From contig NZ_FMZM01000003.1 of the NCBI RefSeq assembly GCF_900101465.1, forward strand, positions 124,001 through 188,000: a stretch of 64,000 nt of DNA, written 5' to 3'. The notes below the pieces were generated by a model. That model was not told where the DNA came from. It searched no databases and saw only the letters and a list, made by a program, of their open reading frames with translations. Positions 29,561 to 64,000 of the stretch are shown here, one piece after another. Every line of letters begins with the position of its first letter. The first letter of the stretch is position 1. The DNA comes from Nocardioides lianchengensis (GTDB taxonomy: Bacteria > Actinomycetota > Actinomycetes > Propionibacteriales > Nocardioidaceae). Both the position numbers and the translations under genes were made by a program.

Positions 29561-30771
29561 GCGTCCAGCTCCTGCTGGCCCCACGGGCTGCCGTACTCGG
29601 TCAGCAGGTCGAGGAACGGGACGGCGTCGAAGGCCTCCGGGCCGAGCACGCCGGCTCCGCTCCAGGTGCCGCGGGCGAGCAGCTCGAGCGCCACGACCGG
29701 GTTGATGGCGGTCTGCCAGACCACGCACTGGTGGCCGTACTCCTGCATCGTCCACTCGTTGTCGACCACGTGGTAGAGGTACGTCGACCGAGGCGCGCCG
29801 TCCTTGCCCTTCCCCGTCACCCACAGGCCCGCGCACGTCTTCCCCGTCATCCGCGGGCCGACCGTGGCGGGGTCGGGCAGCACCGCGGCGACCACGTCGC
29901 GCGGGCTGACCTCGACGCCCTTGACCCGCACCTTCTCGGTGCTGTCGAGGCCGAGGGTGTGCAGCACCTTCAAGATGTTGATGAACTCGTCGCCGAGGCC
30001 GTACTTGAAGGTCGCCCGCTTGCAGTCGACCCAGCGCGGCATCAGGAGCACCTCCTCGTGCTCGACGTTGACGCACTCGACCGGCCCGATGCCCTCGGGG
30101 AAGTCGAAGACCTCGGGCTCGCTGAACGGCGCCGTCGTGTGCCACGCGCCGTCCTGCCAGACCACCGGCGGGTTCAGGCACTCCTCGATCGTGGTCCACA
30201 TCGAGAACGACGGCGCGAAGATCTCGTGGCCGTCGTCGTCGGTGACCACCAGGTTGGCGCCGTCGCGGGTGCCGAGCTCGTCGATCTCGCTGAACAGGTG
30301 GTCGGCGGCGTACCGCGCGAAGACGTCGGAGAGGCCCGGCTCGACGCCGATGCCGACCAGCGCGAGCCTGCCGGCGTCCTGCCAGTCCTGCTCCACGGCG
30401 AACTGCTCGTCGCCGAGCTTCACCCCCGTCTTCTCGTACGGCGCCTCCGGGTGCGGCCTCGACAGCGACATGGCCATGTCGAGGTAGTCGGCGCCCGCGG
30501 CGAACGCGCCCTCGAAGATGCTCATGTTGAAGACGGGGTCGACCGCGTTCATCACGTGGGTGATCGCGTGCTCGCGCACCAGCGCGGCCACGGACTCGGC
30601 GCTGCTCGCGTCGACCTGCGCGGCGGCGTACCGCTCGTCGGTGGCGGCGGCCCGCTCGGCCTTCGCCGCGTCGTAGTCGGCGATCACGATGGTCTCGAAG
30701 AAGTCGCGACGGGCGGCGATCGCAGTGAACGCGCCGCCCACGCCGCCGGCTCCGATCAGGAGGATTCTCAT
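29557..30771 (-). CDS. Saccharopine dehydrogenase family oxidoreductase
   Basis: The 404-residue protein has an N-terminal Rossmann fold (MRILLIGAGGVGGAFTAIAARR) and the saccharopine-dehydrogenase-like C-terminal domain (GVEPGLSDVFARYAADHLF, CAGLWVTGKGKDG). Family members include lysine 6-dehydrogenase, saccharopine reductase and carboxynorspermidine synthase. Its place beside an aminobutyraldehyde-type dehydrogenase and polyamine genes suggests an amino- or imino-group oxidoreduction in polyamine or lysine metabolism, but the reaction is not determined. The downstream membrane gene overlaps its stop. Upstream it is separated from the aldehyde dehydrogenase by the 36-bp tandem array. Confidence 0.87.
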   Translation of the reverse strand: MRILLIGAGGVGGAFTAIAARRDFFETIVIADYDAAKAERAAATDERYAAAQVDASSAESVAALVREHAITHVMNAVDPVFNMSIFEGAFAAGADYLDMAMSLSRPHPEAPYEKTGVKLGDEQFAVEQDWQDAGRLALVGIGVEPGLSDVFARYAADHLFSEIDELGTRDGANLVVTDDDGHEIFAPSFSMWTTIEECLNPPVVWQDGAWHTTAPFSEPEVFDFPEGIGPVECVNVEHEEVLLMPRWVDCKRATFKYGLGDEFINILKVLHTLGLDSTEKVRVKGVEVSPRDVVAAVLPDPATVGPRMTGKTCAGLWVTGKGKDGAPRSTYLYHVVDNEWTMQEYGHQCVVWQTAINPVVALELLARGTWSGAGVLGPEAFDAVPFLDLLTEYGSPWGQQELDA

Positions 30772-30790
30772 GTCATCTCTCTCTGCAGGG

Positions 30791-31065
30791 GGTCTCGATA
30801 CGCTCGCTGGCGCTCGCTACTCGACCAACGAACGACGGCTCGTCGGCGCTCGCTACTCGACCAACGAACGACCGCCCGCCGGCGCTCGCTACTCGACCAA
30901 CGAACGACCGCCCGCCGGCGCTCGCTACTCGACCAACGAACGACCGCCCGCCGGCGCTCGCTACTCGACCAACGAACGACCGCCCGCCGGCGCTCGCTAC
31001 TCGACCAACGAACGACGGCTCGTCGGTCGAGTAGCCGCCGAGGAACGAGGTGGCGTATCGAGACC
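30791..31065. repeat. REP-type element with terminal inverted repeats
   Basis: The element is bounded by GGTCTCGATACGC (30791–30803) and its exact complement GCGTATCGAGACC (31053–31065). The second end reaches the last base of the aldehyde dehydrogenase stop codon. The interior is an expanded tandem array. It separates two same-strand genes and has no coding capacity of its own. Confidence 0.85.
30809..31024. repeat. Six tandem copies of a 36-bp unit
   Basis: Units begin at 30809, 30845, 30881, 30917, 30953 and 30989, each starting GGCGCTCGCTACTCGACC. The four inner units end CCGCCCGCC while the first and last end CGGCTCGTC. There are no spacers. 36 bases equals 12 codons, so every frame reads through the array, which explains the apparent repetitive ORFs here. 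Confidence 0.95.
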
Positions 31066-35250: not shown

Positions 35251-35297
35251 CAACGAAATCAGTCGAGAATCACCCCTTGTAACAACGGATTCACTTG
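35251..35297. promoter_or_regulatory. Paired operator of the polyamine regulon (copy 2)
   Basis: CAACGAAATCAGT (35251–35263) and ACGGATTCACTTG (35285–35297) lie between the amidohydrolase and aminotransferase genes. The span is exactly 47 bases, as in copy 1, and the second half matches 10 of 13 positions. Confidence 0.65.
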
Positions 35298-35330
35298 CTT
35301 ATCAGGGGGTGGACCGCGCACCATGGAGAC

Positions 35331-36719
35331 ATGAGCGCGGACTACGACCACCTCCAGCAGGCAGCCAAGGACCACCTCTGGATGCACTTCACCCGGCACG
35401 ACTCGTACCGGGACGCCGACGTACCTCTGATGGTGCGGGGCGAGGGGGCCTACCTGTTCGACGCGAAGGGCAAGAAGTACCTCGACGGGCTGGCGGGTCT
35501 GTTCGTGTCGCAGCTCGGCCACGGCCGCACCGACCTGGCCGAGGCCGGGGCGGCGCAGGCCAAGGAGCTGGCCTTCATGCCGTTGTGGTCCTACGCCCAC
35601 CCCAGCGCCATCGAGCTGGCGGAGAAGGTCGCGTCGTACGCGCCGGGTGACCTGAACCGCGTCTTCTTCACCAGCGGCGGCGGCGAGGCCGTCGAGACCG
35701 CGTGGAAGCTCGCGAAGAACTACTTCAAGCTCACCGGCAAGCCGATGAAGCACAAGGTGATCTCCCGCGCGATCGCCTACCACGGCACCACCCAGGGCGC
35801 CCTGTCGATCACCGGCCTGCCGCTGCTGAAGCAGCAGTTCGAGCCGCTCGTGCCCTCGACGTTCCGGGTCCCGAACACCAACATCTACCGCGCCGACGAG
35901 TCGACCGGCGGGTTCCTCGACGGCAGCGACCCCGAGGCCTTCGGCCGCTGGGCCGCCGACCAGATCGCGATCGCCATCGAGAACGAGGGCCCCGACACGG
36001 TGGCCGCCGTCTTCCTCGAGCCCGTCCAGAACGCCGGCGGCTGCTTCCCGCCCCCGCCCGGCTACTTCCAGCGGGTGCGCGAGATCTGCGACCAGTACGA
36101 CGTACTGCTGGTCTCCGACGAGGTCATCTGCGCCTTCGGCCGGCTCGGCCACATGTTCGGCGCCGAGCGCTACGGCTACCAGCCCGACATCATCACCTGC
36201 GCCAAGGGCATCACCTCGGGCTACGCCCCGCTCGGCGCGATGATCGCCTCCGAGAGGCTGATGGAGCCGTTCCTCGCCGACGGCGCGATGTTCGCCCACG
36301 GCTACACCTTCGGCGGCCACCCGGTCTCCACCGCGGTCGCGCTCGCGAACCTGAAGGCGTTCGAGGAGGAGAAGGTCCTCGAGAACGTCCGCGACAACGA
36401 GGCCACCTTCCGCGCCACCCTGGAGCGCCTGAAGGACCTCCCGATCGTCGGCGACGTCCGCGGCGACGGGTACTTCTACGGCATCGAGCTCGTCAAGGAC
36501 AAGACCACCAAGGAGTCGTTCACCGACGAGGAGTGCGAGCGCCTCCTCTACGGCTTCGTCTCCAAGCAGCTCTACGCCGAGGGCCTCTACTGCCGCGCCG
36601 ACGACCGCGGCGACCCGGTCGTCCAGCTCGCTCCCCCGCTCATCTGCGGCCCCGAGCACTTCGACGAGATGGAGCAGATCCTCCGCGTCGTCCTCGACAA
36701 GGCCTCCTCCCTCCTCTGA
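35331..36719 (+). CDS. Class III aminotransferase, probably putrescine/polyamine:pyruvate type
   Basis: The 462-residue PLP enzyme begins DHLWMHFTRHDSY and has LFDAKGKKYLDGLAGLFVSQLGHGR, FFTSGGGEAVETAWKLAKNYF, YHGTTQGALSITG, FLEPVQNAGGCFPPPPGYF, VSDEVICAFGRLG and the PLP lysine in ITCAKGITSGYAPLGA (Lys292). The FTRH-type opening and QNAGG segment resemble omega-amino acid and putrescine (SpuC-like) aminotransferases. It would convert putrescine to 4-aminobutanal for the dehydrogenase at 31.1 kb. A class III beta-alanine or taurine specificity cannot be excluded. The upstream region carries the shared operator. Confidence 0.9.
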   Translation: MSADYDHLQQAAKDHLWMHFTRHDSYRDADVPLMVRGEGAYLFDAKGKKYLDGLAGLFVSQLGHGRTDLAEAGAAQAKELAFMPLWSYAHPSAIELAEKVASYAPGDLNRVFFTSGGGEAVETAWKLAKNYFKLTGKPMKHKVISRAIAYHGTTQGALSITGLPLLKQQFEPLVPSTFRVPNTNIYRADESTGGFLDGSDPEAFGRWAADQIAIAIENEGPDTVAAVFLEPVQNAGGCFPPPPGYFQRVREICDQYDVLLVSDEVICAFGRLGHMFGAERYGYQPDIITCAKGITSGYAPLGAMIASERLMEPFLADGAMFAHGYTFGGHPVSTAVALANLKAFEEEKVLENVRDNEATFRATLERLKDLPIVGDVRGDGYFYGIELVKDKTTKESFTDEECERLLYGFVSKQLYAEGLYCRADDRGDPVVQLAPPLICGPEHFDEMEQILRVVLDKASSLL

Positions 36720-36726
36720 CCCACCG

Positions 36727-36800
36727 CCGAGTCATCAGAAGTAGAGGGCCCAGTCAGCAGAAGTGGGGGGCCGAGTCAGCACCAGTAGTGCTGACTCGGC
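36727..36800. repeat. Palindromic TGACTCGGC repeat, copy A
   Basis: Two degenerate forward units (GCCGAGTCATCAGAAGTAGA and GCCCAGTCAGCAGAAGTGG) are followed by a perfect hairpin at 36770–36800: GCCGAGTCAGCAC, loop CAGTA, GTGCTGACTCGGC. It lies just past the aminotransferase stop and 64 bases before the DUF559 gene. The hairpin is the exact reverse complement of the one in copy B. Confidence 0.85.
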
Positions 36801-36863
36801 GTTCTCCACAGGCTGCGGAGGACCCGGTGTGGGGCGTACGTCGTACCGGGCATCCCGTTCGGC

Positions 36864-37805
36864 ATGCCGCTTCCGCTGCCTCATGACTTTCCGCTCCCCC
36901 GCCACCTGCCGTTCACCCGCGCCGACGCGCTGCAGGCCGGGTTGCGCGACTGGGGTCTGCGGCAGCTGGCCCATGAGGGTCGACTGCGGCGGCCCGTCCG
37001 CAACGTGTACGTCGACGCCTCCCTCCCCGACTCGCTGGAGCTCCGGTGTCGCTCCCTCGGTCTGGTCGTCCCGAAGGACGGGTTCATCTGCGACCTGACC
37101 GCCGCCTGGATCCACGCCGGCGAGAAGTCTCTCGCGCCCGGGGACCACGAGCGTGTGCCGCCGGTCTCGTGCTTCCGGCCCAGTGACGGCGGTACAGTGC
37201 GCAACGCGATCACCACGAGCGGCGAGCGATGGGTGCGCCCCGACGACCTGATGGAGATCCACGGGCTCGTGGTCACGACGCCCCTCCGGACGGCCCTCGA
37301 CCTCGGACGCCTCCAGCGGACCGCGGACATGCGTCTGTGGGGAATGTCGTGCATGGCCGCGGCGGGCGGGTCCACCCGCGACCGGATCGCCTACGAGCTC
37401 GACCGGTTCCGGAAGCAGCGCGGCATCGTGCTGCAACGGCTCCTGGTGGAACGAGTCGATCCCGGCCTTGACTCCTTCGGCGAGGCGGCCCTGGACAACC
37501 GGTGGTGGGACGCGGGCCTGCCACCGCCCGAGACCCAGGTCGAGATCGAGCGCGACGACGGGTCGTCGTACTTCCTCGACCTGGGGCTCCGCGCGGAGCG
37601 CTTCGCCGGGGAGTACGACGGCCGCGCCTGGCACACGACCGACGAGCAGCGTGAGCACGACCGCGGCCGGCGCGGGTGGATCCGCGACCACCGCGCCTGG
37701 CGGATCGAGACGTTCACCGAGGCCAACACGTTCGGACACCACCAGGACGCCGAGCGCCTGCTCCGCGACGCCTTCGCCGCCCACCGCGGCGTCCGCTACC
37801 TCTGA
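36864..37805 (+). CDS. AbiEi-like winged-helix protein with C-terminal DUF559 (Vsr-like nuclease) domain
   Basis: The 313-residue protein opens with a small winged-helix segment (FTRADALQAGLRDWGLRQLAHEGRLRRPVRNVYVDAS) of the kind found in AbiEi-type antitoxins. A middle domain contains TTPLRTALDLGRL. The C-terminal DUF559 domain (about 205–305: SFGEAALDNRWWDAGLPPPETQVEIE, EYDGRAWHTTDEQREHDRGRRGWIRDHRAWRIETFTE) resembles very-short-patch-repair endonucleases. Stand-alone genes of this architecture are abundant in Nocardioidaceae; their function is not known to me. No AbiEii partner is adjacent. Copies A and B of a palindromic repeat bracket it in opposite orientation. ATG at 36864 is used. Confidence 0.85.
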   Translation: MPLPLPHDFPLPRHLPFTRADALQAGLRDWGLRQLAHEGRLRRPVRNVYVDASLPDSLELRCRSLGLVVPKDGFICDLTAAWIHAGEKSLAPGDHERVPPVSCFRPSDGGTVRNAITTSGERWVRPDDLMEIHGLVVTTPLRTALDLGRLQRTADMRLWGMSCMAAAGGSTRDRIAYELDRFRKQRGIVLQRLLVERVDPGLDSFGEAALDNRWWDAGLPPPETQVEIERDDGSSYFLDLGLRAERFAGEYDGRAWHTTDEQREHDRGRRGWIRDHRAWRIETFTEANTFGHHQDAERLLRDAFAAHRGVRYL

Positions 37806-37828
37806 CCGCCCCCACACCTGACCCGTCC

Positions 37829-37905
37829 CGCCGAGTCAGCAGTAGTTGTGGGCCGAGTCAGCACTACTGGTGCTGACTCGGCCCACAACTACTGCTGACT
37901 CGGCG
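37829..37905. repeat. Palindromic TGACTCGGC repeat, copy B (36-bp perfect stem)
   Basis: The arms 37829–37864 and 37870–37905 are perfectly complementary over 36 bases with a 5-base loop TACTG. The central 31 bases (37852–37882) are the exact reverse complement of copy A. It lies between the convergent DUF559 and potC genes, where it could also act as a bidirectional terminator. Confidence 0.92.
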
Positions 37906-37918
37906 CGGGGCTGGCGGG

Positions 37919-38716
37919 TCAGGTGAGGGTGGCGCGGCGACGGCGGTTGTTGACCTCGCCGGCGACGACGACGGCGACGGAGAGCAGGAACATGAGGGTG
38001 CCGACGACGTTGACCTGCATCGGGACGCCGCGCTGGGCGACGCCCCAGACGTACATCGGGAAGGTGGTCTCGGTGCCGGCGTTGAGGTTGGTGATGATGA
38101 AGTCGTCGAAGGAGAGCGAGAAGCTCAGCAGCGCGGCGCCGACGATGCCGGGGAGCACCAGCGGGAAGGTGACCCGCCAGAAGGTCTGGGCCGGGGTGGC
38201 GTAGAGGTCCATCGCCGCCTGCTCGAGCGTGTCGTCCATGCCCGCCAGGCGGGCCCGCACGGTGACGACGACGAACGACAGGCAGAACATCACGTGCGCG
38301 ATGAGGATCGTCCAGAAGCCCAGCTGGCCGGCGAAGCCGGCGGCGACGAACAGGGCCAGCAGCGACGAGCCGAGCACGATCTCCGGGGCCGCCATCGGCA
38401 GGAAGATCAGCAGGTTGCTGGCCGAGCGGCCGGCGAAGTCGTAGCGGACCAGCGCGAACGCGGCGAGCGTGCCGAGGACGGTCGCGATCAGGGTCGCGAG
38501 CGCGGCGATCAGGACGCTGGTGACCAGAGAGTCGCAGAGCCCGTTCGGGCCGCAGAAGTTGGTCCAGTTGTCGAGGGTGAACCCGTCGAAGCGGTAGACG
38601 TTGCGGCTGGCCGGGTCGTTGAAGCTCATCAGCACGACCACGAAGATCGGGACGAACATGTAGACGAGGACCAGCAGGCCCAGGAAGAGCACCAGGTGCT
38701 CGCGGATCCACCTCAC
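37919..38716 (-). CDS. potC: Polyamine ABC transporter permease (PotC type)
   Basis: This is the second inner-membrane permease of the importer. The 265-residue protein has six predicted helices (first LVLFLGLLVLVYMFVPIFVVVLMSF) and the EAA-loop LEQAAMDLYATPAQTFWRVTFPLVLPGIVGA that docks on the ATPase. GTG at 38716 overlaps the potB stop (GTGA), so the two permeases are coupled. It is the last gene of the minus-strand potD–potA–potB–potC unit, ending 13 bases from repeat copy B. Confidence 0.93.
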   Translation of the reverse strand: MRWIREHLVLFLGLLVLVYMFVPIFVVVLMSFNDPASRNVYRFDGFTLDNWTNFCGPNGLCDSLVTSVLIAALATLIATVLGTLAAFALVRYDFAGRSASNLLIFLPMAAPEIVLGSSLLALFVAAGFAGQLGFWTILIAHVMFCLSFVVVTVRARLAGMDDTLEQAAMDLYATPAQTFWRVTFPLVLPGIVGAALLSFSLSFDDFIITNLNAGTETTFPMYVWGVAQRGVPMQVNVVGTLMFLLSVAVVVAGEVNNRRRRATLT

Positions 38717-49013: not shown

Positions 49014-49385
49014 GCGCGGCCGGCCCTCCGGACCTATCCGAACGAGGAGTGATACCTGTTCCACTTTTAGTCTAGTTTCTAGATGTTACTTATTGACTCT
49101 GCGCCTGCTGTTCGGCCTCACCAACCCGAGGCCGACCGACTCCGTCTGCTGATCGCCGAGTCGGCAGAAGTTGCGGGCCGAGTCAGCACCAGTGGTGCTG
49201 ACTCGGCCCGCACTTTCTGCTGACTCGGCGCCTAATCCGGTTGCGCTGTGGAGAACCGGGGCCGGATGCTGGGGGTCTGCGTCGGCGTCCTGCCGGTGCC
49301 CGTCGAGAGGAGCGTGACATGTCCATGACTGTCGTTGGCCTGTCCGCAGACCACCCCCTCCTCTCCCGATGGAGCACCACCACCG
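49014..49385. other. Intergenic stretch with AT-rich segment and hairpin
   Basis: This 372-base gap holds an AT-rich segment (about 49050–49097), palindromic repeat copy C (49154–49230), and a short ORF at 49319–49423 with a good RBS. Nothing else coding is seen. Confidence 0.7.
49154..49230. repeat. Palindromic TGACTCGGC repeat, copy C
   Basis: The arms of 37 bases (49154–49190 and 49194–49230) pair at 34 positions. The core GCCGAGTCAGCAC, CAGTG, GTGCTGACTCGGC matches copies A and B. Unlike them it is not next to a DUF559 gene; it lies between the MBL–rhodanese and RIO kinase genes. Confidence 0.85.
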
Positions 49386-59926: not shown

Positions 59927-61443
59927 CAGTCGACGTCCACCCAGTCGAGGGTGCGCTCGACGGCCTTCTGCCAGCCGGCGTACCCCTCCGCACGCTGGTC
60001 GTCGTCCCATTGCGGGGACCAGCGCTTGCCCTCGTTCCAGTTCTTGCGCAGCTCGTCGGTGTCCTTCCAGAAGCCGACGGCGAGCCCGGCAGCGTACGCC
60101 GCGCCCAGGCAGGTGGTCTCGGCCAGCACCGGACGGCTGACCTCGACCCCGAGCACGTCGGCCTGGATCTGCATGCACAGCTCGTTGGCGGTCACGCCGC
60201 CGTCGACCTTCAGCACCTCCAGCTTCACGCCCGAGTCCTTCTCCATCGCGTCCGCGACGTCCTTGGACTGGTAGCAGATCGCCTCCAGGGTGGCGCGGGC
60301 GACGTGGGCGTTGGTGTTGTAGCGGGAGAGCCCGACGATCGCGCCCCGGGCGTCGGAGCGCCAGTACGGCGCGAACAGCCCCGAGAAGGCCGGCACGAAG
60401 TAGACGCCGCCGTTGTCCTCGACCTGCCGGGCCAGCGACTCGCTCTGCGAGGCGCCCGAGATGATGCCGAGCTGGTCACGCAGCCACTGCACGGCCGAGC
60501 CGGTGACGGCGATCGAGCCCTCGAGCGCGTAGACCGGCTTGTCGTCGCCGAAGCGGTAGCAGACCGTCGTCAGCAGACCGGCCTTCGAGCGGACCAGCTC
60601 GGTGCCGGTGTTGAGCAGCATGAAGTTGCCGGTGCCGTAGGTGTTCTTGGCCTCGCCGGGCTCGAAGCAGACCTGGCCGACGGTCGCAGCCTGCTGGTCG
60701 CCGAGGATGCCGGTCAGCGGCACCTCGCCGCGGAACGGCCCGTGCGCGTCGGTCTTCCCGTAGCCCTCCGGGTCGCTGGAGGAGCGGATCTCCGGCAGCA
60801 TCGCCCGCGGGATGTCGAAGAGCGCGAGCAGCTCGTCGTCCCACTCGCAGGTCTCGAGGTCCATCAGCATGGTGCGGCTGGCGTTGGTCACGTCGGTGAC
60901 GTGCGACCCGCCGTCGGTGCCGCCGGTGAGGTTCCAGATCAGCCAGGAGTCCGTCGTACCGAAGAGGGCGTCGCCCTTCTCGGCCGCCGCCCGCACCCCG
61001 TCGACGTTCTCCAGGATCCACTGGATCTTGCCGCCGGCGAAGTACGTCGCCGGCGGCAGCCCGGCCCGCTCGCGGATCAGGTCGCCGTGACCGTCGCGCT
61101 CCAGCTTGGAGGCGATCTTGTCGGTACGGGTGTCCTGCCACACGATCGCGTTGTAGTACGGCCGGCCGGTGTTCTTGTCCCACACCACGGTCGTCTCGCG
61201 CTGGTTGGTGATGCCGACCGCGGCCAGGTCCGCCGCGGTCAGCCCGGCCTTGCCGAGCGCGGTCTGGATGACCGAGCGGGTGCGCTCCCAGATCTCCACC
61301 GGGTTGTGCTCGACCCAGCCGGCCTTCGGGAGGATCTGCTCGTGCTCGAGCTGGTGGCGCGCCACCTCCTCCCCCGCGTGGTCGAAGATCATGAAGCGGG
61401 TGCTGGTGGTGCCCTGGTCGACGGCGCCTACGTAGGTCGTCAC
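59926..61443 (-). CDS. glpK: Glycerol kinase
   Basis: GlpK phosphorylates glycerol to glycerol 3-phosphate. The 505-residue FGGY kinase has [14 protein letters not shown] at the N-terminus, [45 protein letters not shown], and the C-terminal [13 protein letters not shown]. It is full length for the family. The GTG start at 61443 follows AGGAGG. It is downstream of glpF and coupled to glpD. A second, divergent glycerol kinase gene lies at 63.2 kb. Confidence 0.97.
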
Positions 61444-63214: not shown

Positions 63215-64000
63215 CCGGTTCCCGCTCGTACGTCGCCGCCCTCGACCAGGGCACCACCTCGACCCGCTGCCTGGTCTTCGACCACGCCGGCCGGATGGTG
63301 GCGGCGGCCCAGCACGAGCACCGCCAGCACTACCCGCAGCCGGGCTGGGCGGAGCACGACGCCGCCGAGATCTGGCAGAACTGCCTGCGGGTGCTGCCCG
63401 AGGCCCTGGCCTCGGCCGGCCTGGTCCCCGGCGACCTGGCCGCTCTCGGCATCGCCAACCAGCGTGAGACCACGGTCGTGTGGGACCGCACCACCGGCCG
63501 TCCGGTGGCACCGGCCATCACCTGGCAGGACACCCGGGGCGCCGAGATCGCCGCCCAGCTCGCCGACGGGCCGACCGGAGACCTGTTCGAGGAGGTGTGC
63601 GGGATGCGCCCGGCCGGCTACTTCTCCGCGCCCCGGCTGCGCTGGCTCCTCGACCACGTTCCGGGCCTGCAGCGCCGCGCCCGCACCGGCGAGATCGCCT
63701 TCGGGACCATGGAGAGCTGGCTGATCTGGAACCTCACCGGTGGCCCCGACGGCGGCGTCCACGTCACCGACGTGACCAACGCCAGCCGCACCCTGCTGGC
63801 CGACGTGCGCACCCTGCAGTGGGACCAGCGGCTGCTCGACGTGCTCGACGTCCCCGTCGAGCTGCTCCCCGAGATCCGCCCCAACGCCCAGGTGTACGGC
63901 GAGTGCCGGGTCGGCCTGCCCGGCGTCCCGATCGGCGGCGCGTTCGGCGACCAGCAGGCGGCCCTGTTCGGCCAGACCTGCTTCGCCACCGGCGAGGCCA
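63211..64000 (+). CDS. Second glycerol kinase (partial, 3' end outside window)
   Basis: The visible 263 residues form the N-terminal domain of an FGGY kinase: [48 protein letters not shown], and GAFGDQQAALFGQ. It is clearly paralogous to the glpK at 59.9 kb, with similar segments but many differences. GTG at 63211 overlaps the regulator's stop, so its expression is coupled to that of the IclR protein rather than to glpF–glpK–glpD. It may be glycerol kinase isozyme or a kinase for a related polyol. Confidence 0.9.
   Translation, partial: MTGSRSYVAALDQGTTSTRCLVFDHAGRMVAAAQHEHRQHYPQPGWAEHDAAEIWQNCLRVLPEALASAGLVPGDLAALGIANQRETTVVWDRTTGRPVAPAITWQDTRGAEIAAQLADGPTGDLFEEVCGMRPAGYFSAPRLRWLLDHVPGLQRRARTGEIAFGTMESWLIWNLTGGPDGGVHVTDVTNASRTLLADVRTLQWDQRLLDVLDVPVELLPEIRPNAQVYGECRVGLPGVPIGGAFGDQQAALFGQTCFATGEA

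Follow-up and report, generated by a model that had tools for sequence, protein, structure and literature searches.

A predicted winged-helix nuclease gene of Nocardioides lianchengensis and the dispersed palindromic repeats that bracket it suggest an enzyme-and-repeat partnership

REP/RAYT systems comprise an enzyme gene, present as a single copy between palindromes of its own, and inverted doublets of these repeats, the REPINs, which are scattered outside genes (PMC3116915). REPINs carry compensatory changes between the two arms of their hairpins, and distinct RAYTs may coexist in one genome (PMC3116915). The RAYT is the known enzyme partner of palindromes of the GTAG class, and the CGTC REPs are said to lack a dedicated transposase (PMC3733652). 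Inverted repeats are also recognised by AbiEi, which binds 23-bp copies beside its own gene and represses its own promoter (PMC7319586), and the Vsr-related enzyme VsrA has been linked to DNA damage in vivo (PMC12907096). Among the matches listed in a partial coverage of the literature, preprints excluded, no nuclease of the DUF559 or AbiEi type was tied to dispersed repeats.

The stretch of DNA analysed here (the window; 64,000 nucleotides from N. lianchengensis) contains a gene for a predicted nuclease that lies between two copies, A and B, of a long palindromic repeat (Table 1). The 31-nucleotide centres of the two copies, at 36770-36800 and 37852-37882, are exact reverse complements, and their orientation is marked by the five central bases, which read CAGTA in copy A and TACTG in copy B. 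A first-pass annotation made from the letters of the window had described these centres, a single gene between them with a winged-helix start and a Vsr-like nuclease domain, and convergent flanking genes; the centres were confirmed in the sequence, and the neighbours are indeed convergent, with an aminotransferase gene on the plus strand facing an ABC permease gene on the minus strand. Copy B is longer than that annotation stated, as its 36-nucleotide arms are 100% complementary and enclose a 5-nucleotide loop, for a total of 77 nucleotides, and as single-stranded DNA it folds with -52.2 kcal/mol (z -16.4). Copy A lacks this symmetry: two 22-nucleotide units (36726-36747 and 36748-36769), each one mismatch away from the core word, lie to the left of its centre, the right side carries none, and the z value of its single-stranded fold is -5.7. 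A search against Rfam returned microRNA hairpin models, AS-traI and isrG, each far under its gathering score and therefore read as hairpin artefacts. Two further repeated structures were seen in the window. A 36-nucleotide unit is arranged head-to-tail at 30765-31052, in six overlapping 108-nucleotide copies with 69-95% identity to the reference, and is possibly coding; the segments 60648-61434 and 63229-64000 form long inverted arms that are about 75% complementary and are probably a pair of diverged paralogs on opposite strands.

Table 1. Coordinates of the nuclease gene, its neighbours and the repeat copies within the window.
Feature	Position	Strand	Description
Class-III aminotransferase gene	35295..36719	+	Left neighbour of the nuclease gene, context only; Pfam
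Copy A	36725..36802	+	Two 22-nt units and a 31-nt palindromic centre; 61 nt ahead of the nuclease start codon
AbiEi-type winged-helix and DUF559/MTES_1575 (Vsr-like) nuclease gene	36864..37805	+	313 aa
Copy B	37829..37905		Full four-unit palindrome; 23 nt past the nuclease stop codon
ABC transporter permease gene	37919..38716	-	Right neighbour, convergent, context only; Pfam
Copy C	49154..49230		Full dispersed copy of the copy A/B family; no adjoining nuclease gene

The two-domain reading of the gene product held up when the family was considered as a whole. A PADLOC AbiEi model matched residues 17-158 of the N. lianchengensis protein (E 1.1e-7), and among 37 family members, Pfam matches at E 0.01 were obtained to AbiEi_4 in 24, to MTES_1575 in 31 and to DUF559 in two; the single-sequence Pfam matches of the protein itself were weak and below the cut-off (AbiEi_4, E 0.0027; MTES_1575, E 0.0062). 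Five residues, Glu207, Gln225, Asp239, Glu250 and His257, are invariant in all 62 aligned proteins, and dN/dS relative to the homolog from the related genome G187 is approximately 0.26 (dN 0.192, dS 0.742). Together, these observations make it likely that the product is an active enzyme under selection, with a nuclease activity that is predicted from the conservation of its motif. A search of solved structures gave one weak match, to the mobile intron protein 3r3p (E 0.89), which was not used, and structure prediction without an alignment reached a pLDDT of 33. No viral homologs of the protein and no PHROGs matches were found, and neither direct neighbour, by Pfam an aminotransferase on one side and an ABC permease on the other, is an AbiEii (DUF1814) toxin gene.

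Homologs occur in 170 of 196 Nocardioides genomes and in 19 of the 296 genomes of a phylum sample, N. lianchengensis being counted in both. When 61 loci were joined by similarity on either flank, a procedure that may over-merge, they fell into 13 groups, the two largest with 20 and 17 members. So small a number of sites indicates that the gene is mostly inherited in place and is not itself a roaming cassette, and the notion of a minimal mobile cassette, raised in the first-pass annotation, was abandoned. Two nuclease loci on different contigs of one genome (L193 and L194 of G206) have equal flank scores and common 64-nucleotide flank repeats, possibly as a result of recent duplication or an effect of assembly. 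In addition, up to seven homologs per genome were seen in G254, G290 and G312, which belong to one genus.

A search of the whole N. lianchengensis genome (5.29 Mb, 25 contigs) for the 31-nucleotide centre, with no more than three mismatches, returned 36 copies; the reversed control pattern returned none in the same search, and a chance origin was therefore rejected. The hairpin is thus present in many copies, but the association of such repeats with the gene family, on which the earlier suggestion of a pairing turned, is strong across genomes. The repeat is modular, with a 22-nucleotide unit that comprises the core GCCGAGTCAGC and an 11-nucleotide spacer and is used in both direct and inverted orientation. 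Both outer units are present in nine copies, one in 24 and none in three. In the nine copies with both, which are all that the arm-matching test covers, changes in the spacer tend to match across the arms, with 16 mismatches versus 29 expected (p = 0.0004). At one locus, L079, the units form a direct array without a palindromic centre. Inspection by eye, in place of a formal motif search, for the unpaired GTAG-type tag that marks one end of a REP palindrome found GTAG in many of the copies, inside the palindrome (CAGTAGTGC) and not as an end tag.

The words AGTCAGCA and GAGTCAGC, typical of the N. lianchengensis repeat, were not found in L117-L119. A family restricted to the species was suggested by its absence from 57 relatives and its occurrence in only four unrelated contigs elsewhere; this reading proved wrong because the sample had left out G187, a carrier, with the same repeat type at the site orthologous to 49154. 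A second dispersed family of the N. lianchengensis genome, GCCGAGTCGGC-GCACAGGTGC-GCCGACTCGGC, was seen at L051:64-95, with a variant at L046:1928, and no bracketed nuclease partner was found for it in this genome, in which GCCGAGTCGGC words number 126 versus 30 for the control.

Bracketing was assessed in 60 homologs, each taken with up to 20 kb of sequence: the 450 nucleotides on the upstream side of the gene were compared with the 450 on its downstream side, and the longest exact match in inverted orientation had to reach 16 nucleotides. The first 40 genes, from 38 genomes, are the 41 best matches outside the N. lianchengensis genome minus that of G078, which lies near a contig end, and were picked regardless of repeat content. 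A third batch of 20 genes was partly picked for high core counts and for second homologs; it is included in the core-cluster counts, the random-placement survey and the 50-genome ratio, and figures for the first 40 are given separately. By this measure, 25 of the first 40 genes are bracketed, and 40 of the 60 overall. Of the 464 other genes with 200-500 codons that these stretches contain, only 2 are bracketed (genes called by codon usage and not taken from annotation), as are 1 of the 81 with gaps of at least 50 nucleotides on both sides and 1 of 600 random placements; one self-repeat match in the flank survey, at L177, is a run of N. The repeats thus adjoin this gene family well above chance (25/40 against 2/464). 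Furthermore, clusters of the core lie within 600 nucleotides upstream or 500 nucleotides downstream of 29 of the 60 genes, and the remaining 1.1 Mb or so contains three.

A local-alignment score for inverted similarity between the two flanks gave a median of 77 for own pairs and 23 for swapped partners over 61 genus genes (p = 1e-30), with one of the 62 genus rows omitted for a short flank and the upstream limit of L209 probably misplaced; in one homolog set, the limits of open reading frames were set by rule. By gene, 21 of the 61 exceed the 99% point of the null and none exceeds its maximum, because related partners share units. Among homologs from other genera, the inverted score exceeds the 99% point of the null in 11 of 28 (p = 2e-7) and fails to do so in 17; the direct orientation also exceeds it in 11 of 28, as palindromes would give, so that orientation is not proven in these genera. 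Plain hairpins stand on both sides of several of these genes (L211, L217, L222, L224 and L227). At the second N. lianchengensis homolog (L086), and at L169 and L185, no convincing bracket was found. Comparison of flanks therefore supports the view that bracketing belongs to this gene family throughout the genus and, to some extent, in other genera. In the three relatives whose whole block is closest (G187, G076 and G062), the conserved gene was accompanied by different repeats, not by none, which answers the earlier concern that the gene might be conserved where repeats are lacking.

The units are also particular to each gene. Six genomes had more than one homolog examined, and in these the similarity between the two flanks of the same gene has a median of 79 (17 genes), and that between genes a median of 29 (16 pairs); the two top between-gene scores come from the duplicated locus of G206 (122) and from two genes of G193 (60). 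Gene specificity of the units, with paralogs in one genome carrying different units, is supported by these alignments.

In most cases tested, the unit that brackets the gene is also the unit that is dispersed in that genome. The ratio of GCCGAGTCGGC to control words has a median of 5.3 (2.0-10.2) in 19 genomes in which this core brackets the gene and of 1.5 (0.8-3.4) in 19 in which it does not (p = 1.4e-7), and over all 50 genomes the medians are 6.8 and 1.5, respectively. Among the 196 Nocardioides genomes, a ratio of at least 3 is reached in 51 of the 170 with a homolog and in none of the 26 without. Related loci and genomes are not independent, so shared ancestry is partly counted repeatedly in these across-genome tests and in the array spacings discussed below.

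A second unit gave the same picture. The 13-mer GACCCGCCCGAAA, first noticed beside the genes of G009 and G202 and at a gene-less site in G205, is present in 135 copies in G009, 155 in G205, 118 in G202, 90 in G164 and 52 in G186; among the 196 genomes, G210 has 10 copies and each of the other 190 at most four. A bracket of GACCCGCCCGAAA was predicted beforehand for homologs of G205 and G164 and was borne out in both, so that the 13-mer brackets the gene in all four of the high-copy genomes in which a homolog was found. It is absent from two other homologs of G009 and from the other homolog of G205, and no homolog was detected in G186, an assembly 69% complete, or in G210, although both carry GACCCGCCCGAAA. 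Outside the genus, in another family, GATCAAGAGGTTTG was counted 82 times in G420, with copies on either side of the gene, and not at all in 19 other genomes. The exception is G254, whose bracketing unit is not dispersed (11 occurrences versus 9 for the control, one mismatch allowed). In the genus of G254, G290 and G312, a bracket is seen at L211, and the lack of dispersal of the tested unit perhaps reflects a stage without spreading.

The dispersed copies lie at the 3′ ends of genes. Of the 36 N. lianchengensis copies, 19 have convergent neighbours, 17 co-directional and none divergent ones, against a background in the same loci of 10, 56 and 47, respectively, and no copy among the 36 lacks a gene whose 3′ end faces it. 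The 18 copies of a second family in G009, G202 and G205 are distributed similarly, with 12 convergent, 6 co-directional and none divergent (background 32, 125 and 57), so that none of the 54 copies examined lies between divergent genes; orientation was scored on the same codon-usage gene calls. Such placement is what ordinary bidirectional terminators, flanking the nuclease gene by coincidence, would show, an alternative that the first-pass annotation had itself put forward. It is also what tolerated insertions would show. The part of that alternative that stood is the 3′-end location, and its weaker part emerged from orthologous sites: at C7:93724, N. lianchengensis and G187 both have a native hairpin that resembles a terminator, and only N. 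lianchengensis has the repeat, and the site orthologous to 49154 is without a repeat in G122. By-eye inspection found no T run after the copies viewed, which speaks against terminators to the extent that such runs can be expected; actinobacterial terminators may lack them. Coincidental terminators would, moreover, leave the bracketing of one gene family unexplained, and we regard this as a decidedly improbable account of the repeats.

Seven site comparisons, that at C7:93724 among them, bear on how the copies came to their positions. No repeat was found in two (L057 in G187 and 49154 in G122), the same family in one (49154 in G187) and another family in two. In one of the latter, the L048 site, G009 carries its own GACCCGCCCGAAA palindrome after the left gene, and in the other, the unit at the L067 site in G076 is the one that brackets the second homolog of G076 (L188). 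The remaining two comparisons are less clear: the L058 site in G187 contains other arrays, and the L077 site in G202 has no repeat but a different neighbouring gene. Orthologous sites thus argue for insertion and turnover of the repeats. At an aminotransferase/permease junction that lacks the gene (L122 in G129), an array with a period of roughly 22 nucleotides and a different core, GGGCGCCACCTCGGCCCTGCGC, was observed, which implies that arrays can persist or arise there without the gene.

That repeats occur at many 3′ junctions, and that the same junction may hold different families in different species, might instead mean that the gene entered, or persists passively in, repeat-rich intergenic sites with no trans-acting link to the repeats around it. 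Passive residence would not lead one to expect that paralogs in one genome carry different units (79 within and 29 between genes), that a core ratio of 3 is reached in none of the 26 genomes without the gene, or that other genes of the same regions are so rarely bracketed (2/464). We therefore find it barely credible.

The arrangement of the units within arrays is compatible with a DNA-binding protein. All 65 same-strand distances between cores of up to 45 nucleotides are 21-22, 31-34 or 42-43 nucleotides, and such spacings, near whole helical turns, fit a protein that binds at successive sites along one face of the double helix. The same phasing would be expected if the repeats were sites of a regulator, with the gene-side copies as its operator, the scattered copies as a regulon or an architectural network, and the nuclease domain secondary or devoted to defence, and AbiEi antitoxins do regulate their own expression and bind 23-bp inverted repeats in pairs (PMC7319586). 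For the upstream copies, binding at an operator would suffice as an explanation, which counts against a more elaborate model. However, core clusters are found downstream as often as upstream (22/60 and 21/60 genes), the dispersed copies avoid promoters (0/36 in N. lianchengensis and 0/18 elsewhere between divergent genes), the nuclease residues are invariant, and there is turnover of repeat families at given sites from one species to the next. A purely regulatory role is therefore considered unlikely.

The bracket, the gene specificity of the units, their link with the dispersed copies, the conserved nuclease motif, the 3′-end location and the helical phasing were each observed directly. The earlier idea that the nuclease and a hairpin substrate of its own form a pair, in loose analogy to REP/RAYT, gains support from the first three of these as an association, and it is rather probable that the gene and its repeats make up a single system that operates in the manner of a REP/RAYT pair, with the enzyme acting on its own repeats spread through the genome. 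For the steps themselves, namely binding, cutting, and the spreading or mobilisation of the repeats, we infer the following course. The AbiEi-type N-terminal domain would bind the near-palindromic core of the unit on one face of the DNA, and the Vsr-like C-terminal domain would nick or cut at the inverted junction or at an extruded hairpin. The break could then be repaired, or the template switched there, in such a way that the short element is copied into new intergenic places, and selection would keep only insertions at 3′ ends, since other places would not tolerate the element. The bracketing copies probably double as the enzyme's own operator.

Taken together, the data suggest that the small nuclease gene and its repeat constitute a previously unrecognised enzyme-and-repeat partnership, built on an enzyme unrelated to RAYT; an enzyme family other than RAYT is thereby linked to repeats of its own, with a specificity that extends to the single gene. 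More tentatively, and with some doubt on our part, the actinobacterial nucleases that combine an AbiEi winged helix with DUF559 may represent a second class of enzymes that spread repeats, one that evolved independently. In this reading, each nuclease would recognise a gene-specific, phased unit and, by way of nicks or breaks and without a transposase, would disperse it over the genome and maintain it there in the form of inverted elements. If that reading is true, many orphan palindromic repeats of high-GC genomes would be accounted for. The family also offers a direct test of the origin, spread and 3′-end choice of dispersed palindromes, with many natural enzyme-site pairs in which the candidate site can be read from the flanks of each gene.

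How this arrangement relates to the systems described previously can be stated for each in turn. From AbiEi and Rv2827c, the type IV antitoxins with which it shares an N-terminal winged-helix domain (PADLOC; Pfam AbiEi_4 in 24/37), the present protein differs in having no adjoining AbiEii toxin gene, in its C-terminal half, which is a nuclease of the DUF559/MTES_1575 type, and in repeats that also lie downstream and genome-wide. The Vsr/DUF559 solo endonuclease VsrA of Caulobacter likewise has a DUF559-type nuclease domain, and the acidic/histidine motif conserved in the Vsr-like nucleases of the DUF559/MTES_1575 families is recognisable in all 62 aligned proteins of the present family; unlike the gene studied here, VsrA is linked to a cytosine methyltransferase, and the available part of that report mentions no link to dispersed repeats (PMC12907096). 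The CGTC-tagged REPs are similarly short, dispersed palindromes without an adjoining RAYT, but they were described from five phyla that do not include Actinobacteria and with no known dedicated enzyme (PMC3733652), whereas here an enzyme gene is bracketed.

The arrangement also resembles REP/RAYT itself. In both, inverted copies of a repeat stand on the two sides of the enzyme gene (here in 25/40 and 40/60 homologs, compared with 2/464 other genes), and the same repeat is dispersed as inverted doublets (36 in N. lianchengensis, 52-155 for GACCCGCCCGAAA and 82 in G420, though not in G254). Compensatory changes between arms and the coexistence of distinct enzyme genes in one genome are further points in common. 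A RAYT acting as hidden mobiliser was rejected, as a search for the RAYT/Y1 transposase domain (Y1_Tnp, PF01797) gave no matches in the N. lianchengensis genome and was positive in 5 of 14 control genomes. Unlike in REP/RAYT, the enzyme here combines an AbiEi-type winged helix with a Vsr-like nuclease, and the units are arranged in arrays with a period of 21-22 or 31-34 nucleotides. The proposed system thus works like REP/RAYT, yet it is not a member of that class, as the enzyme that defines it is a different one.
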